A DNA stretch of 64,000 nt, taken from assembly GCF_024713945.1 (NCBI RefSeq), contig NC_134680.1, forward strand, positions 4,178,001-4,242,000. The letters are read 5' to 3'. The notes beneath the pieces are model-generated. The model made no database searches. It had not been told where the DNA came from and saw only the letters and a program-made list of their open reading frames with translations. The translations under genes and the position numbers were made by a program. Source of the stretch: Dermatophagoides farinae. Lineage: Eukaryota > Arthropoda > Arachnida > Sarcoptiformes > Pyroglyphidae. This document shows, piece after piece, positions 49,518-63,115 of the stretch (position 1 is the first letter of the stretch; the number at the start of each line of letters is the position of its first letter).

Positions 49518-50863
49518 ATGTCCCGACGATGTTTTTGGCAAAATTTTAAAATGATTCTAACCGAATCATCGTATCGATCATATTCAACATTTTTATCGAA
49601 TGCAACGAAACCGAAATCAATTGAAAGTAGGTATAAATATTTTATGCTTTTGGATTATGATGATTTCTGATTTTTTTTTGTTATTTCTAAAAAATTAGAT
49701 AAATTAATATACAAAACAATAGATCAAACAAAATATCGACATCTGATCAATGATGATTATTCATCAATTGATTCAATATTGAAAGAATATGATTACTTGA
49801 AATATATGACCGGTTATGTACCATCGGATATTAGCGTGGAACAAATGTCCGATTTATTATCAATGGAAAATGAACGTCAACGTAAACAATATTTGCGATA
49901 TTTATTTCTAAATGAAATTCGTAAACAAAAAGATGAAAGAAAACGTTCGGAACGAAAACAACGATATCAACAATATTTAGATACTCGTGCTGAACGTACA
50001 TTCGGCATTTTCGATGATAATGGCCAACTTTCCTATCAATTGTGGTCAAATACAATGATTGGTAGAATATCATCAAGAAATGTATCACATATACGTACTA
50101 CACAACGTTTACGTTATGCATCAATGTTTGGACAGAAATTAATTATCGATCTTGATTATGATGATCATATGTCATTAAGTGAATGTCGAATACAAGTGAA
50201 TCATATTATGAGATTATTAGTGGAAAATTTACGCTCAACAAATGATCCATTTGATATTTACTTTACAAATTGTGATGATCAAAAACCAACAATGAAAAGT
50301 TTATCCAAATATTTCAATACAATGCCTTTTCAGGTTAGTGTAATCACAAATACTACATATGTTTAAAACAAATCGAAAAAAATTTTTCTGTTTTTGTTTT
50401 TTTTTAGTTAATGTCATTAAAGGAACAATTTCTAACAAAAAGTTATATGGATGTATTTGATCATAATCTTCTTGTTTATCTAACACCAAATGCCACGGAA
50501 ACATTAATCAATTATAATCATGATGATATCTATATAATCGGTGGTTTTCTTGATAAATCCAATCTAAATAAACCAGTAAGTCATCTAAAGGCGTCAAATG
50601 ATGGAATCCGACAATATCGTTTACCATTGGATCAATTCGTACCTTGGGGATCGGGTTCATCAAAACATCTTTGCATAATGCATGTAGTTGCCATTTTAAA
50701 TCAAATGAAACAGACTAATGATTGGAAACAAACATTATGTGAACAGATACCGAAACGTAAAATGAAAGATTTCGATGAATTAGAACGTGAAAATCGTGAA
50801 CGAAAATTAGCCTATATGAAACGGAAATTGTCAATCAATAATAATCATATGGAAATTTTATGA
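49518..50863 (+). CDS. TRMT10C: TRMT10C/MRPP1-like mitochondrial tRNA methyltransferase, 399 aa (complete copy)
   Basis: Three exons, 49518-49626, 49699-50333 and 50408-50863, join in phase. The N-terminus (MSRRCFWQNFKMILTESSYR and following) is basic and Ser/Thr-rich without acids, as for a mitochondrial targeting peptide. A charged coiled region (ENERQRKQYLRYLFLNEIRK) precedes the SPOUT methyltransferase domain: LIIDLDYDDHMS, VYLTPNA, IYIIGGFLDKS, then LPLDQFVPWGSGS with ILNQM. The length is close to human TRMT10C (403 aa). Family knowledge: TRMT10C with SDR5C1 methylates position 9 of mitochondrial tRNAs and forms the platform of RNA-only-free RNase P. The 3' part from 49995 lies inside the tandem duplication. 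This copy keeps its 5' exons and should be the working one. Confidence 0.88.
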
Positions 50864-50992
50864 TAATAACCAAAAAAAAAAAAAAAAATATTGGAAAAAA
50901 AATTATAAATACAAATTGATGATGATAATGAATGGAGGAGTATTAAGATTTTGATGATATATAAAATAACAATATACATTCAAAATAATTAA

Positions 50993-51789
50993 TCAATCAA
51001 AATATTCATAACGATGAACGGTAAAACTAATTAATGATGCAATGCCTAATAATGAACCGGCAGCAAAAAATACACCCGTATATGATAATGTTAAATCATA
51101 TAAAAGGCCAGCTAATGGTGGACCGGCAATAGCTGATAGGCCACGAACACAGCTTATTAATCCGAATGTTGTTGTCAATAATTCCAATGATAAAATATCG
51201 ACCAATATGATCGATGTTAATGACATGTATGATGCTATTTTTTTTTTAAATTAATTAATGTAAAATTAAAATTGTAAATTAAAAAATCGATAACAATAAA
51301 TGGTACATACAGATTGTGAAACCAAATAAAATCGAAATAGCCATCAATATCCAATATGATGGACAGAATGGTATGGCCATCACTGATAGACCGGCAATCA
51401 AAAGACAAACATTATTGATGAATAAAGCGGAAATTCGTATAAGACCGAAAAAGATATTTGTACCACTAAAACGATCGCTAATCAAACCGAATGCTAAACG
51501 GCCAATTACATTCGATATACCAATGGCTGATAGAATCCATGCTGCTTTTGTTCCTTCAACTTTTGATATATAAACGAAGGACGAACAAAAAATGAACAAA
51601 ATTGTTTTGAATTCAATCAAATAAACTTACTATCCAAATGTTCGGTAGCAAAACGTACGACATAAACATATGGAATATAATATCCAATCATTCCGAATAC
51701 ATTCGATAGGGCAAGTAATGCCATTGGTGTAATTTTTAATACAGAAAAATCTAACACCTCTTTAAGATTGATACGATTTTCCATTGCTT
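50993..51789 (-). pseudogene. 5'-less duplicate of the SLC16-like transporter gene
   Basis: This carries copies of the last two transporter exons (51311-51559 and 50993-51234) and the 3' part of exon 2 (51631-51789). The first exon and most of exon 2 are absent, so the N-terminal membrane segments and the GGYGW motif are missing. The sequence is the same as the complete gene at 52788-54779. It cannot encode a whole transporter. Confidence 0.85.
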
Positions 51790-52658
51790 CGTACATTCGG
51801 CATTTTCGATGATAATGGCCAACTTTCCTATCAATTGTGGTCAAATACAATGATTGGTAGAATATCATCAAGAAATGTATCACATATACGTACTACACAA
51901 CGTTTACGTTATGCATCAATGTTTGGACAGAAATTAATTATCGATCTTGATTATGATGATCATATGTCATTAAGTGAATGTCGAATACAAGTGAATCATA
52001 TTATGAGATTATTAGTGGAAAATTTACGCTCAACAAATGATCCATTTGATATTTACTTTACAAATTGTGATGATCAAAAACCAACAATGAAAAGTTTATC
52101 CAAATATTTCAATACAATGCCTTTTCAGGTTAGTGTAATCACAAATACTACATATGTTTAAAACAAATCGAAAAAAATTTTTCTGTTTTTGTTTTTTTTT
52201 AGTTAATGTCATTAAAGGAACAATTTCTAACAAAAAGTTATATGGATGTATTTGATCATAATCTTCTTGTTTATCTAACACCAAATGCCACGGAAACATT
52301 AATCAATTATAATCATGATGATATCTATATAATCGGTGGTTTTCTTGATAAATCCAATCTAAATAAACCAGTAAGTCATCTAAAGGCGTCAAATGATGGA
52401 ATCCGACAATATCGTTTACCATTGGATCAATTCGTACCTTGGGGATCGGGTTCATCAAAACATCTTTGCATAATGCATGTAGTTGCCATTTTAAATCAAA
52501 TGAAACAGACTAATGATTGGAAACAAACATTATGTGAACAGATACCGAAACGTAAAATGAAAGATTTCGATGAATTAGAACGTGAAAATCGTGAACGAAA
52601 ATTAGCCTATATGAAACGGAAATTGTCAATCAATAATAATCATATGGAAATTTTATGA
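51790..52658 (+). pseudogene. 5'-less duplicate of TRMT10C
   Basis: This carries the 3' part of exon 2 (51790-52128) and exon 3 (52203-52658), identical to the complete gene. It lacks the mitochondrial targeting exon and the coiled N-terminal region. A fortuitous ATG at 51784 opens the frame (MLRTFGIFDDNG), so a product containing most of the SPOUT domain is conceivable if it is transcribed and spliced. It has no promoter of its own that I can see. Confidence 0.85.
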
Positions 52659-52787
52659 TAATAACCAAAAAAAAAAAAAAAAATATTGGAAAAAAAATTA
52701 TAAATACAAATTGATGATGATAATGAATGGAGGAGTATTAAGATTTTGATGATATATAAAATAACAATATACATTCAAAATAATTAA

Positions 52788-54779
52788 TCAATCAAAATAT
52801 TCATAACGATGAACGGTAAAACTAATTAATGATGCAATGCCTAATAATGAACCGGCAGCAAAAAATACACCCGTATATGATAATGTTAAATCATATAAAA
52901 GGCCAGCTAATGGTGGACCGGCAATAGCTGATAGGCCACGAACACAGCTTATTAATCCGAATGTTGTTGTCAATAATTCCAATGATAAAATATCGACCAA
53001 TATGATCGATGTTAATGACATGTATGATGCTATTTTTTTTTTAAATTAATTAATGTAAAATTAAAATTGTAAATTAAAAAATCGATAACAATAAATGGTA
53101 CATACAGATTGTGAAACCAAATAAAATCGAAATAGCCATCAATATCCAATATGATGGACAGAATGGTATGGCCATCACTGATAGACCGGCAATCAAAAGA
53201 CAAACATTATTGATGAATAAAGCGGAAATTCGTATAAGACCGAAAAAGATATTTGTACCACTAAAACGATCGCTAATCAAACCGAATGCTAAACGGCCAA
53301 TTACATTCGATATACCAATGGCTGATAGAATCCATGCTGCTTTTGTTCCTTCAACTTTTGATATATAAACGAAGGACGAACAAAAAATGAACAAAATTGT
53401 TTTGAATTCAATCAAATAAACTTACTATCCAAATGTTCGGTAGCAAAACGTACGACATAAACATATGGAATATAATATCCAATCATTCCGAATACATTCG
53501 ATAGGGCAAGTAATGCCATTGGTGTAATTTTTAATACAGAAAAATCTAACACCTCTTTAAGATTGATACGATTTTCCATTGCTTCTATTTCGGTTAATTG
53601 ACTTGTTATTGTCCATGTACGTGGCCTTTGTACAAATGATCGTCGTGAATGATTAGAATATTTTGAATTAACCGACATTGAACTTTTATTCACCGATAAT
53701 GAACTTTTATTCATTGATAATGTACCATGATTATTATTATAACGACGATTACCAGCACTTGCAATCGATTGATTTGATTTACATGTTGAATTACGTTGTA
53801 AACGATTTTTCATCGCATTATCATTATCACCATCACCATTATCCGATTTTTGAATTATTAATGGTTTCATTAAAAGGCCATAAAATGTACAACAACCAAT
53901 ACAAATAGCCAATATTAATAATGATTGTTTCCAATCATAATTAGCCAATAAAAATTGACAAAATGGTGAGAATAGAAATGCACCCATACCAGAGCCACAG
54001 ACAGCGATACCGGTAGCGAATGCACGTTTAGTTGTAAAATAATGGCCAACCGATACAATCGATGGTAGATAGATGAAACCAAAACTGCAGCCAGCTGAAA
54101 AATTGAAATTTCAAATTAAAATTAATCAATCAATTGGATTTTTTCCATACTTACTAACTATACCATAGGTTAGCAAAAGTATGTAGACATTTGGTGCACG
54201 TGTAGACAATGCTAATGCAAGTGCAGCCATTATACTGCCTATAATTGAAATCGGACGACATCCATAACGATTAACAAGAGTGGATACGAATACGCCGACA
54301 GTCATATAACAACCGCTTAATAAAGATCCAGTCAATGCTGTAATTGCTTCATTCGAACCGAAATAATCAAGAAAATGTGGTAAAAATATACCGAATGTAT
54401 AGCAGACACCATCAACTGTAAGATTACACATGAATGATGCGAATACAACGATCCAACCATAGCCACCATTTGGTATACCATTCGATAAATCAGCGTTTTG
54501 TTGTCCATCATTATCATCATGCGTATTAATAACACATTTACTTGTTGAATCACCTGTTGCTTTTCGTATAGTAATCGTCGGTGTTGCTGGACTTTTCATC
54601 GAACCATCAATATTTTCAATGGTAGCCAAATGTTCAACATTCAATGATAATGGTGATGGAAGTTTTTTTCGTTTTGATGATAATTTTTTCTCAATACTAT
54701 TTATCGTTTCATGATGATTGTGATTATGATTATGATTATGATTGTGATTATGATTTGCATTATCAATCTGAAAAATCAT
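52788..54779 (-). CDS. SLC16/monocarboxylate-transporter-like MFS protein, about 594 aa (complete copy)
   Basis: Exons 54155-54779, 53426-54094, 53106-53354 and 52788-53029 all join at phase 1. The signature PNGGYGWIVVFASFMCN, followed by YTFGIFLPHFLDYFG, is the MCT-type first membrane segment (family form GGWGW). Other family blocks are GSLLSGCYMTVG, NRYGCRP, GCSFGFIYLPSIVSVGHYF, KRAFATGIAVCGSGMG, a long hydrophilic loop, then VIGRLAFGLISDRFSG and SSYMSLTSIILVDILSLELL with GPPLAGLLYD. That gives the two six-segment halves. The N-terminal tail has an Asn-His repeat. The start at 54779 is uncertain: TGATTTTTCAG lies just downstream of it and could be an acceptor, with the true start in an exon further right. 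Substrate cannot be told from sequence. Confidence 0.85.
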
Positions 54780-58381: not shown

Positions 58382-61300
58382 TTAATATCGTATTCCTTCG
58401 TCATTAAACATGTGTGGTGCTTTTTTATATCGGATTCCTTCATCATCAAATGGTGATTTTTTATAACGGATACCTTCATCATCGAATGGTGATTTCTTAT
58501 ATCGGATTCCTTCATCGTCAAATGGAGATTTTTTATAACGGATACCTTCATCATCGAATGGTGATTTCTTATAACGGATTCCTTCGTCATCGAATGGTGA
58601 TTTTTTATAACGGATACCTGTATGACAGAATAAAAAACCAAAGTAAATAAAGTTAAATCACACAAATTCGGTAAACCAATTTGAGAGGAAAAAGTGTAAG
58701 ACCTCGTGAAAATTAGACATTTTCATCAGAATGTAAAAAAAACAGTAGAAACAATAACCGAAGCAGATGTCAATGGTTTTGTGACGATGGAAGACAACAA
58801 CAACAACAACAGCAACAGAAGCAGCGTTTTGATGTCAAGAAAAGAAGTGCAAATTGAAAGAATGAAAAAAAGCAGTTTGCATTTGTGTGTGCTTGTGGGC
58901 GATTGAATAGCGAGTGCAAGGAAAGATAAACGTAAGCAGATTCATTTAGTGATCAATAATTTGGAAGAAGAAAAAATTGAGGTCGTTGACTTACCGGTTG
59001 CACTGTATAATAAATTCATTATGTAAATATTTGGTTGGACATTAATATTTTAAATTTGATGATTCAAATGTGATTGAAAAAAATGACTACCAGTGTTGTG
59101 GATATCTCTTTTAAAACGGATACCTTCTTTATCCCAAGGAATTGCGCCTAATATTATTTTTTGTGATAGTAATTTTTTCGAACGTGGTGTTTCCAATACA
59201 GGACGATCGGTTTCAATTAACCGTGATGATGATGATTTACTAGCAACCGTATGACCCGTTCCGGTTGTTGTTGTTGTTATCGCATGATGTTTTTGTCGAT
59301 TGATTTTTGTTGCAATAGGTTCGATTACTTTCATTGTTGCCGATGTCGTCATTGCGGCCGTACTTGTTGGAAATAATTGTGGTGAAAGAGTGAATAGATT
59401 GGCTCCATCATTGCCAAACAATGATGCAGGCATAAAATCCGATTGATTATCATTATCTTCAATCGATCGTGGTGATTGTTTATTGGCCATGATTGAATGT
59501 GATGATGATAATGATGAATCTTCATCATCACTATTTCGACTCGTTTTCATCGACGCGGATGATTGTTGTGATAATAGATCTAGATTGTCATTCGAATCTG
59601 TTTTGAATAATTTTAGTTGATCAACATCAAACGGTGACAGGGATGATTGTTGTAAATGATTACGATAATCATATAATGACGATGTTGATGTTGTTGTTGA
59701 TTTCAATTTCTTATTCTCTTGTTGCTGTTGTTGTTCCATATGTTGATTATTTCCAGACATTTTTAATGCATTTTCCAAACGTTTTAATTGTTCTTTTGAT
59801 TGAATCTTTTCCAACAATGGTTTAGCAACGGATAGATTCATCAACAACAGGATCATACGTTTATTAACACGATTATTTTTATCGGAATTCATTGAATTAC
59901 GATTTCTTCGGCTACCAATTTGAACAATTTTACCATTCTGTTTTTTATAACGTATTCCTTTTAGATCTTTCCAGAATGAATCCAAACGTTCAGCATATGA
60001 TGATTTATGTAATGAATCACTATTATCTTTCAAATGGTTTTTATCTCTTCTATCTATTACCATTCGTCCAAGATGATTATGGCCATTACTTGGTTGGCCG
60101 AAAAACCAGCTCTTCTTTTCACGCATCGATGATTTAGATGATGATGATGGTCGTTCATTTACAAATTGATGATTTTCATTTTGTCGATCATCGATGACCA
60201 ATTGTATACATTTTTTTATCAAATTTACATATAAATGTGGATTCATTATCATTTTCGATGTTGAATTTTGATTATTCATATTTTTAGCTGTTACTGCTGC
60301 TGCTGTCGTTGCTATCATCATCATCTTTGGATTCGAATATTGTTCATGATGATGTTCTTGTTGTTGTTGTTGCTGCTGCTGATGTCCTCTATCGACAGAT
60401 GACTCTACTGCTATTGGATTATCACTATTTCTACCACTATTACTATTAACACTATCTTTATTTAGATCATCATGTCTATAATATGTACCATCATGATCGA
60501 TATTTTTCAATTCAATTGATTCAAATTGATTGTTTAATCGTTGTTGTTGATGATTATTAAAAAAATTAAATAAATCACTATGAACATTATGATTATCATC
60601 AGCTTGATGATAATCGTCAAAATCATCATCACCATCATGATGATTATGATGATGATCATAATCATAATCTATATTCGTGCTGCTGCCACCACCACCATTA
60701 TTCTGTTCCATTGGTATAATTATTCTGTTTTTTCTCATTGAAATCGAAATCGGTATGGCTGATGATGATATTGTTTGATGATTAGTTGCTAATTTATTAC
60801 TATCCGTGAATAAATTTTCATCATTATCATCATCTACATTTTGTTTTCAAATCAAACATATATCAAAGTGGAATTTTTCGAAAAATTCGAATTGAAAAAA
60901 AAACAGGGTAAAAAAATTATTGAAATGATTATACAAAAGAAAAAACAGATAAATGGTGCTCTTTAACAGTGTGAAATTTTTTTTTTGTTTTATTTTGAAT
61001 TGAAATAGTCGATGAATTTTTGGAAAAAGAAAGTAATTTTTTTCTTGGAAAAGAAAATAAAATTATTACAAACCTTTACTAGCAAGATCACGTGTCAATA
61101 TGGCCGATATGATCTGTTGACATGCTTCCAATGGTCTATTACCAATGATCAATGGTTGTGCCATCAATGTCCAACCAGGTTGTTGTTGATTATCGATACT
61201 ACGTTTGGCCAACATTGAAATCGAAACATCATCGGTTGATGATGATAATGGCAATTTTGATGATGTTGGTTGTATCGATGATGATGATGATGATGGTGTA

Positions 61301-61620
61301 ATCGATACACAATGTGTCGGTTGTACAGTGATCATCATCATCATCATCAGTGATATACATAGTGCCATTATTGTCGATAATGATATTAATGAATTACGTT
61401 GGGAAGCGGAAATGTATGCTGAAGAAAAAGAGGACAATAATGGTGTTAATGATGATAATGATGATGATGATGATGATGATGGACACAATACCATATCCGT
61501 TTCAATACAATTATCTGTGTTAAAAGAATAGGAAGCATTGTTGTTGTCGTTGTTGTTAAAGACAAACATCCGTTTATGTTGAAATTGTTTTGATGAACAT
61601 TTGACATTTGATGTAGACAT
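58382..61620 (-). CDS. Candidate neuropeptide precursor with tandem GIRY/GIRF peptides, up to 841 aa
   Basis: Three exons join at phase 1: 61074-61620, 59091-60833 and 58382-58617 (donors GTTTGT and GTAGTC, acceptors ending TAG and CAG). A hydrophobic signal-like segment (MALCISLMMMMMITVQPTHC) starts at residue 85, at 61368, which may be the true start. After it comes an LAKR-S dibasic site. The long middle part is low-complexity with scattered KR/KK sites and WKDLKGIRY-KK. The C-terminus runs AIPWDKEGIRF-KR, DIHNTGIRY-KK, five SPFDDEGIRY-KK units, and a final APHMFNDEGIRY. Tandem short peptides set off by Lys-Lys/Lys-Arg behind a signal segment are typical of neuropeptide precursors processed in the regulated secretory pathway. 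No Gly follows the peptides, so they would not be amidated. I do not recognise the family. Confidence 0.75.
58421..58600 (-). repeat. Five 36-bp coding repeats (SPFDDEGIRY-KK)
   Basis: Five units in exact 36-base register encode the same 12 residues. All differences between units are synonymous (Ser, Phe, Asp, Gly, Arg and Lys third positions). Units 2 and 4 are identical, and units alternate GGA and GGT for Gly, which suggests growth by 72-base doubling. Confidence 0.95.
58618..59090 (-). other. Long last intron of the peptide precursor gene
   Basis: At 473 bases it is much longer than other introns here. It splits the Gly codon of DIHNTG-IRY. I found no further peptide-coding exon in it. 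Confidence 0.6.
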
Positions 61621-63115
61621 TTTTATTTCTGATGATAATTATTCAAAATTAATTAATTAATTAAATTCGAAAATCAGCAAAAAGTGTTTATGTGTGAAGT
61701 GGAAAAAAACGAACAAAGAGTGAAAAAAAATTACAATAAAATTCATACACAAACAAAAATTTTTGTCAATCAAAAAAAAATGATTCGATATTTTTTGTTC
61801 TCGTTGTAGAAATTAATTTCCTTATTTTTTTTTTTCTCTCTCTCTCTCTCATATGATAAATTTGAAACTTGATGAAATGAAATTTATTCGTTTGTAAATT
61901 TTCATGCTTTTATATACCATGGCCACCATCATCGGATGGACCAACACCTAATACCCGACGACAACGATAACAACCAAAAAAAAAAAAAAAAAAAAAGAAA
62001 GAGAACCACCAGATAGATACATAAGGTGGTTACAATAACAACAACGACAATAACCGGCTTGTCTTGCGCTAAAACAAGCAAATAGAAACAGCTATATTCT
62101 GGACATGAACAAACAAGAAACAACGATAACAACAACAACAACAACAAAAATATCGGCTATTTAATAGACCATTTTTCTACCATTTTTATTCTATGTTTAA
62201 ATTTTGGGCGGATCTTTTTTTTCACTCTTTGATTGAAAAAAAAAACAAATGTGGTGCCCGTACACACACACACACACACATCATACAAATATTGAAAATA
62301 AAATGTTATAGTCAGTCAATAATAATAATGATAAAATATATAACTACCTTACATGACATTACATATTGAATATGATAATAATGGTCAATATAAAAACATT
62401 GAAATATCAACAGTCAAACAAAACAAAACAAAAATGAACAATGAATGAATCAAACCTATAAAATTGGATCTTTTTTTCCCTTTCATCATTCATTCATTCA
62501 TTATTATTGTTTTATTACATTGGCAAAATGTCACAATGTTCGATGTCAAATTAATATAATTATTATATATTATGACAAGATTATTTTTTGTTGTTGTTGT
62601 TGTTGTTTCGTTTCATGACATTTTCATTTTTATTTTCATTTTTTTTATATAATAAACTACACTTTATTATTATATGATCAAAAGTTAACAATTACATCTT
62701 CTATAATATTGAATGTCGTCATTGTCATTGTTAATGGGTTTGTGTGTGTGTGTGTATGGGATTCTATTTGGTCAATCAATGATGATCATCATCATTTCAT
62801 TGTCAAAAAAAAAACAACAACAACAAACACTTGAATAAACACTTGAAAATGCATTTGAACATCTTCATCTTATACATTTGAAGAGAATTTATCAATAGTG
62901 TAGAGAAAAATAAAATTGCCATTAAGTTTTGGGGAATCTATTTTTTTTTTTAAATAGAATTATTCCATAAACTTTGTTTCCATGTCTTCATTGGTTAGAT
63001 GGTTATATTGGAATAAAACCTACCATCATCATCATCGAACTTCAGTGACTTTATGAATTTTATTATGAACCAGAAAAAAATAAGAACAAAACAAAACAAA
63101 AAAAACAACAAAATT

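Follow-up and report, generated by a model that had tools for sequence, protein, structure and literature searches.

The window, that is, the whole 64-kb stretch of Dermatophagoides farinae DNA analysed here (C4:4,178,001-4,242,000), carries on its minus strand a gene predicted to encode a multi-copy precursor of peptides ending in GIRY or GIRF, referred to here as the GIRY gene (Table 1). A preliminary description of the window had joined three exons, the first ending at 61,074, and this arrangement holds, with the three segments in phase and separated by GT-AG introns. The exon 2 frame is open over 580 codons (598 from stop to stop), and exon 3 translates as IRYKK-(SPFDDEGIRYKK)x5-APHMFNDEGIRY-stop. 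Removal of intron 2 restores the reading frame and the DIHNT-GIRY motif together, exon 2 ending in DIHNT-G and exon 3 opening with IRY-KK, which makes the predicted exon 2/exon 3 join persuasive on its own; the transcript is presumably spliced in this way in vivo. Elsewhere in the window, positions 49995-51790 are repeated exactly and in tandem at 51790-53585, with 1,796 identical bases at an offset of 1,795 bp; this may be a recent duplication or an assembly artefact and includes a 151-aa open frame that we take to be TRMT10/RNase P protein 1-like.

Table 1. Features of the GIRY gene (window positions) and of related or compared loci (contig positions, with locus positions in brackets).
Feature	Position	Strand	Remarks
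Predicted start and signal peptide MALCISLMMMMMITVQPTHCVS	61303..61368	-	hydropathy peak; ATG context
Exon 1, coding part	61074..61368	-	donor AAAG/GTTTGT, phase 1; open frame 61,066-61,638
Intron 1, 240 bp, GT...AG	60834..61073	-	AAAG/GTTTGT...TGTAG/ATG, phase 1
Exon 2, spacer with WKDLKGIRY-KK and AIPWDKEGIRF-KR, end DIHNT-G	59091..60833	-	donor ACTG/GTAGTC
Intron 2, 473 bp, GT...AG	58618..59090	-	ACTG/GTAGTC...CATACAG/GTATCC, phase 1
Exon 3, peptide array and stop codon	58382..58617	-	open frame, motifs
DKNHLKDNSDSLHKSSYAERLDSFWKDLKGIRY, dibasic-bounded, then KK	59947..60045	-	contains WKDLKGIRY
LLSQKIILGAIPWDKEGIRF, dibasic-bounded, then KR	59113..59172	-	contains AIPWDKEGIRF
DIHNTGIRY, then KK	58607..59106	-	intron 2 between G and IRY
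Five tandem 36-nt units, SPFDDEGIRY-KK	58421..58600	-	identical protein
APHMFNDEGIRY, last peptide	58385..58420	-	TAA directly after, free acid C-terminus
Neighbour gene, 166 aa, two exons	C4:4244398-4244981 (L024:4499-5082)	+	predicted; beyond window
Second precursor, 542 aa	C7:781269-786067 (L016:3770-8568)	-	predicted two exons
C7 gene, ATG and intron	ATG L016:8568; intron L016:8246-5077		predicted; phase 1
Orcokinin-type frame, seven FDE[IML]D-[HR]-[ST]-GF units	C8:1587766-1588164 (L030)	-	
Sulfakinin-type frame, end QERHLRFGKRFSSRAKYSDLDYGHMRFGRR-stop	C2:3874655 (L017)		

The start codon had been placed at 61,620, where an open frame does exist, although initiation there appears less likely, as it would leave the hydrophobic stretch about 80 residues into the protein. 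In the 841-aa model that begins at 61,620, the stretch MALCISLMMMMMITVQPTHCVS shows the highest hydropathy (15-residue mean 2.35, compared with up to 1.82 for a second hydrophobic stretch, MILLLMNLSVAKPLL) and occupies residues ~77-101. The ATG at 61,368, with A at -3 and G at +4, is followed immediately by this stretch and would give a normal-looking N-terminal signal peptide, and is therefore the preferred start, yielding a predicted precursor of 757 aa with much low-complexity spacer. A pyrimidine-rich candidate acceptor, CTCTTTTTCTTCAG/CATAC (61419-61432, minus strand, ending at 61,419), lies inside exon 1 as first described, with no ATG between it and 61,368; this strong-looking acceptor suggests an intron in the 5'-UTR and a start at 61,368. 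Both the signal peptide and its cleavage site are predictions. Hydrophobic N-terminal stretches are found in all three predicted proteins discussed here, those of the GIRY gene, the C7 gene, and the neighbour gene.

The GIRY and GIRF peptides reported earlier, including the five copies of SPFDDEGIRY, are all read on the minus strand of the window, and all nine Arg-Tyr/Phe pairs of the spliced precursor, counted with no filter on their flanks, lie in a G-I-R-[YF] motif. Eight of the nine are followed by KK or KR and the ninth by the stop codon, as had been described, with none followed by Gly, in agreement with the earlier view that the peptides are not amidated. In the six frames of the window, the pattern G-[ILMVF]-R-[FY] stands before a stop or a pair of basic residues nine times, each time in the GIRY gene. 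WKDLKGIRY and AIPWDKEGIRF are present and have the proposed dibasic site on their right, but neither has one directly on its left; the left dibasic sites lie farther off, with DKNHLKDNSDSLHKSSYAERLDSFWKDLKGIRY and LLSQKIILGAIPWDKEGIRF as the expected bounded products.

The five SPFDDEGIRYKK units differ at 7 of their 12 codons, with pairwise differences comprising 36 synonymous and 0 non-synonymous changes. Such silent-only divergence shows that the array is not a fresh duplication of DNA, and that the peptide has been conserved. Outside these identical units conservation is looser, the silent bias being weaker though in the same direction: when the last five codons of all units are compared, 52 codon differences are silent and 23 replacing for the 9 units of the window gene, and 151 silent and 56 replacing for the 16 units of a second gene, on contig C7. 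A count for the C7 gene that gave 83 silent differences and no replacing ones carries no weight, since its 12 units were chosen by a pattern that fixes those residues.

A Der f 2 stretch, taken from a PDB alignment, matches the genome searched here at 99% over 119 residues (next best match 45%), which marks it as D. farinae. The C7 gene emerged from searches of this genome (62,435,336 bp, 22 contigs), in which the best non-self match of the GIRY array lies at C7:781,902-782,174 (E 1.4e-15), with a weak further match at C3:6694761 (E 0.456). In the reverse direction, the best non-self match of the C7 array is the GIRY gene of the window (E 8.9e-16), in an alignment that crosses the terminal stop of the latter. 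By these reciprocal best non-self array matches, the predicted C7 gene is a paralogue of the GIRY precursor gene. The N-terminal parts of the two precursors show no clear similarity (their alignment score is reached by 26 of 500 shuffles), and paralogy thus rests on the arrays. In the C7 precursor, 16 of 16 Arg-Phe pairs lie in G-x-R-F units (13 GMRF, 2 GLRF, and 1 GFRF), 15 of which end in EG[ML]RF and one in GGFRF, alongside one degenerate segment; the units are of the LLNDEGMRF type and include two copies each of PDPLFNDEGMRF and PNLLDNEGMRF, and ADPSLLNDEGMRF. Fifteen precede KK, KR, RR, or RK, and the last runs directly into the stop codon, with none followed by Gly, so that 23 of the 25 units of both precursors precede a dibasic pair and two a stop, with none ending otherwise. 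That another multi-copy precursor, elsewhere in the genome, shares this C-terminal signature points to a family and not to one isolated gene. The frames beside the C7 gene (L016:567-2357) are presumably septin-like.

Across the genome, a codon pattern for EG-x-R-[FY] followed by basic-type codons is matched 26 times, against 5 times for the reversed-pattern control; the window gene accounts for 6 of the 26, the C7 gene for 14, and other places for 6. By this pattern, which is blind to units lacking E before G and to very divergent genes, there are two multi-copy genes. Among the matches considered as family units, EGIRYRK at C4:4534940 was dropped, as it lies in a frame that we take to encode an adaptin-like protein. 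Another, at C4:4,244,736 on the plus strand, is the single EEGIRY-RR of a predicted gene beyond the window (context EIIRR-ITQHQMDADSLVRLYDLCLRSEEGIRY-RR), which lies head to head with the GIRY gene at ~5.0 kb from start codon to start codon. This neighbour gene, with its ATG at C4:4,244,398, an 83-bp phase 1 intron, a hydrophobic N-terminus, and two cysteines, is preceded in L024 by 4,498 bp whose open frames reach at most 111 aa. Against the GIRY precursor the EGIRY motif alone aligns, with the score reached by 14 of 500 shuffles (16 of 500 against the N-terminal part), and against the C7 precursor the score, again over the motif, is reached by 2 of 500. A whole-genome search with the neighbour protein returned only itself, and searches with it gave no NCBIfam match and BES1_N as the only Pfam entry (E 0.58). 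Its one match in the PDB, to a histidine--tRNA ligase (E 1.1), is taken as chance. The head-to-head position is striking, though judged after the fact, and we regard the neighbour gene as a candidate third member of the family whose homology to the GIRY gene is only suggestive.

When the units of the three genes are set out in 22 rows, with the five identical SPFDDEGIRY units as one row, G and R are invariant (22/22), and in 19 of 22 the residue before G is E. The consensus first proposed, (F/W)-x2-3-GIR(Y/F), is revised, as its core is E-G-[IML]-R-[YF] and mostly L or F stands where F/W had been placed, to give [LF]-[ND]-x-E-G-[IML]-R-[YF]-OH, not amidated.

Searches of Pfam with exons 1 and 2 of the GIRY gene gave no family, and those with its array gave matches that all fell under the cut-off (FixQ, E 0.00099; PmbA_TldD_3rd, 0.0019; DUF6798, 0.0035; Nudix_N, 0.013; DAB2_SBM, 0.086). 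Exon 2 and the array had no match in NCBIfam, and a scan of IMG/VR with the array likewise gave none. With the C7 array, DicB (E 0.036) and PCF11_RFEG_rpt (0.57) fell under the cut-off. HipN reached 26.3 bits on this array (cut-off 23, E 5.9e-6) and was rejected, as no single stretch passes and the score is taken as a sum over repeats. The long low-complexity spacers, the lack of a Pfam domain in exons 1-2, and the restriction of array matches to short or repeat-summed ones would suit a secretory or structural repeat protein that escapes cutting, or a repeat that is not transcribed. We nevertheless consider either reading very unlikely, as the units of the two precursors end at a dibasic pair (23/25) or a stop (2/25), the array has drifted only at silent positions, and the same end signature recurs at a second locus.

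The hydrophobic N-terminus, the near-identical peptides bounded by dibasic sites, the silent-only divergence of the array, and the second precursor instead support the reading as a peptide precursor given in the preliminary description. We are fairly confident that the GIRY gene encodes the prepropeptide of a non-amidated family of regulatory peptides, most likely neuropeptides, of D. farinae. The signal peptide would direct the precursor into the secretory pathway, where a prohormone convertase may cut after KK and KR and a carboxypeptidase trim the basic residues. The expected products are five copies of SPFDDEGIRY, APHMFNDEGIRY, DIHNTGIRY, and two longer forms, each with a free Tyr or Phe at its C-terminus, to which the C7 paralogue would add 15 peptides ending in EG[ML]RF and one in GGFRF. 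A receptor, probably a GPCR, would then read the common end E-G-[I/M/L]-R-[Y/F]-OH. Expression of the GIRY precursor is presumably neural. The main alternative is a non-neural secreted multi-copy peptide of the gut, the epidermis, or a salivary or reproductive gland, with for example a defensive or mating role, as any secretory cell could use the same layout. This is unlikely in our view, with the invariant C-terminal signature, variable N-terminal parts, and presence at two loci looking rather like those of a receptor ligand. Most defensive peptides, moreover, differ from the acidic, cysteine-free peptides of the array; the longer WKDLKGIRY form is exceptional in charge.

The GIRY and C7 precursors are thus best read as a real small family of mite regulatory peptides that we do not place in a named family. 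We see about an even chance that the GIRY and GMRF precursors, perhaps with the third, single-copy, cysteine-bearing gene (ITQHQMDADSLVRLYDLCLRSEEGIRY), make up an undescribed signalling system of astigmatid mites whose acid-ended E-G-[IML]-R-[YF] peptides act on one orphan receptor group. Many mite peptide receptors are without a ligand, and neuropeptide systems, peptides and receptors alike, are candidate targets for selective acaricides. With its 25 units over two genes of a house dust mite, a non-amidated family offers synthetic ligands for direct testing and, if the reading is true, mites would carry peptide families absent from standard arthropod lists.

The family was first described as a candidate undescribed one, and we could match neither precursor to a named family known to us or met in literature searches. 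Full-text searches with letters of the EGIRY/DEGIRY type gave no neuropeptide among the matches listed, as judged by title; those of the EGMRF/DEGLRF type appeared in a food-peptide context alone, with no neuropeptide, and those of the SEEGIRY/GIRYKK type gave no match. Topical searches likewise gave no such neuropeptide among the matches listed, which did not include the main chelicerate neuropeptide surveys. Excerpts of PMC12105342 report 23 neuropeptides of D. pteronyssinus and name allatostatins, CHH, insulin-like peptides, sNPF, ETH, and bursicon, while in excerpts of PMC7591027 neuropeptides appear as receptor ligands only. The Ixodes table, as excerpted from PMC7828734, names no GIRY family, and an extract of PMC4748124 describes further novel putative neuropeptide genes, found through tandem repeats that carry amidation and dibasic signals.

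The named families closest in layout or sequence were set apart in the preliminary description, and here the comparison extends to their own loci. The orcokinin core is absent from all 22 unit rows, and an orcokinin array lies at a separate locus on C8. The YGHM core of sulfakinin is also absent, no Gly follows the aromatic residue, and a canonical sulfakinin motif (DLDYGHMRFGRR) is found separately on C2, in a frame that reads LDYGHMRFG. The reversed control of the sulfakinin pattern also gives 1 match, so that the identity of the C2 locus rests on the reading of its frame; a stricter pattern, DDYGHMRFG, gave no match in the genome. As both the orcokinin array and the sulfakinin motif occur at other loci, the GIRY gene is neither, and its simple membership of either family is already refuted. 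Five of the seven units of the C8 frame end in GFA ahead of KR, and in the C2 frame an upstream HLRFG copy is unusually divergent.

NPLP1 is a multi-copy precursor with partly non-amidated peptides. To our knowledge no NPLP1 peptide motif is recognisable in the GIRY and C7 precursors. RYamide/luqin and FMRFamide-like peptides need a Gly for C-terminal amidation, and the absence of this residue excludes both by their usual definition; the earlier description had likewise found no match to RYamide. Whilst they resemble the GIRY and C7 units in ending in -RY or -RF ahead of dibasic sites, Gly follows none (0/25) of the Arg-Tyr/Phe pairs in the two precursors.

Descent from a known family, as either a sulfakinin that lost amidation or an orcokinin-like peptide, is very improbable indeed. 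FDDEGIRY is superficially like the reference sulfakinin FDDYGHMRF-amide, with F-D-D-x-G, an F-D-D stretch, and a hydrophobic-Arg-aromatic end in common, but the GIRY and C7 units lack the Tyr-Gly-His-Met and the amidation Gly, and the sulfakinin motif and seven-unit orcokinin frame occupy loci of their own. The FDExDxSGF (NFDEIDR-type) core of orcokinin is also absent from these units, although orcokinin and pedal peptide-type precursors share with them multiple copies, KR and KK sites, acidic peptides, and a free acid C-terminus. Though it falls outside these groups by the features that define their membership, the GIRY family is built like non-amidated multi-copy neuropeptides such as orcokinin.
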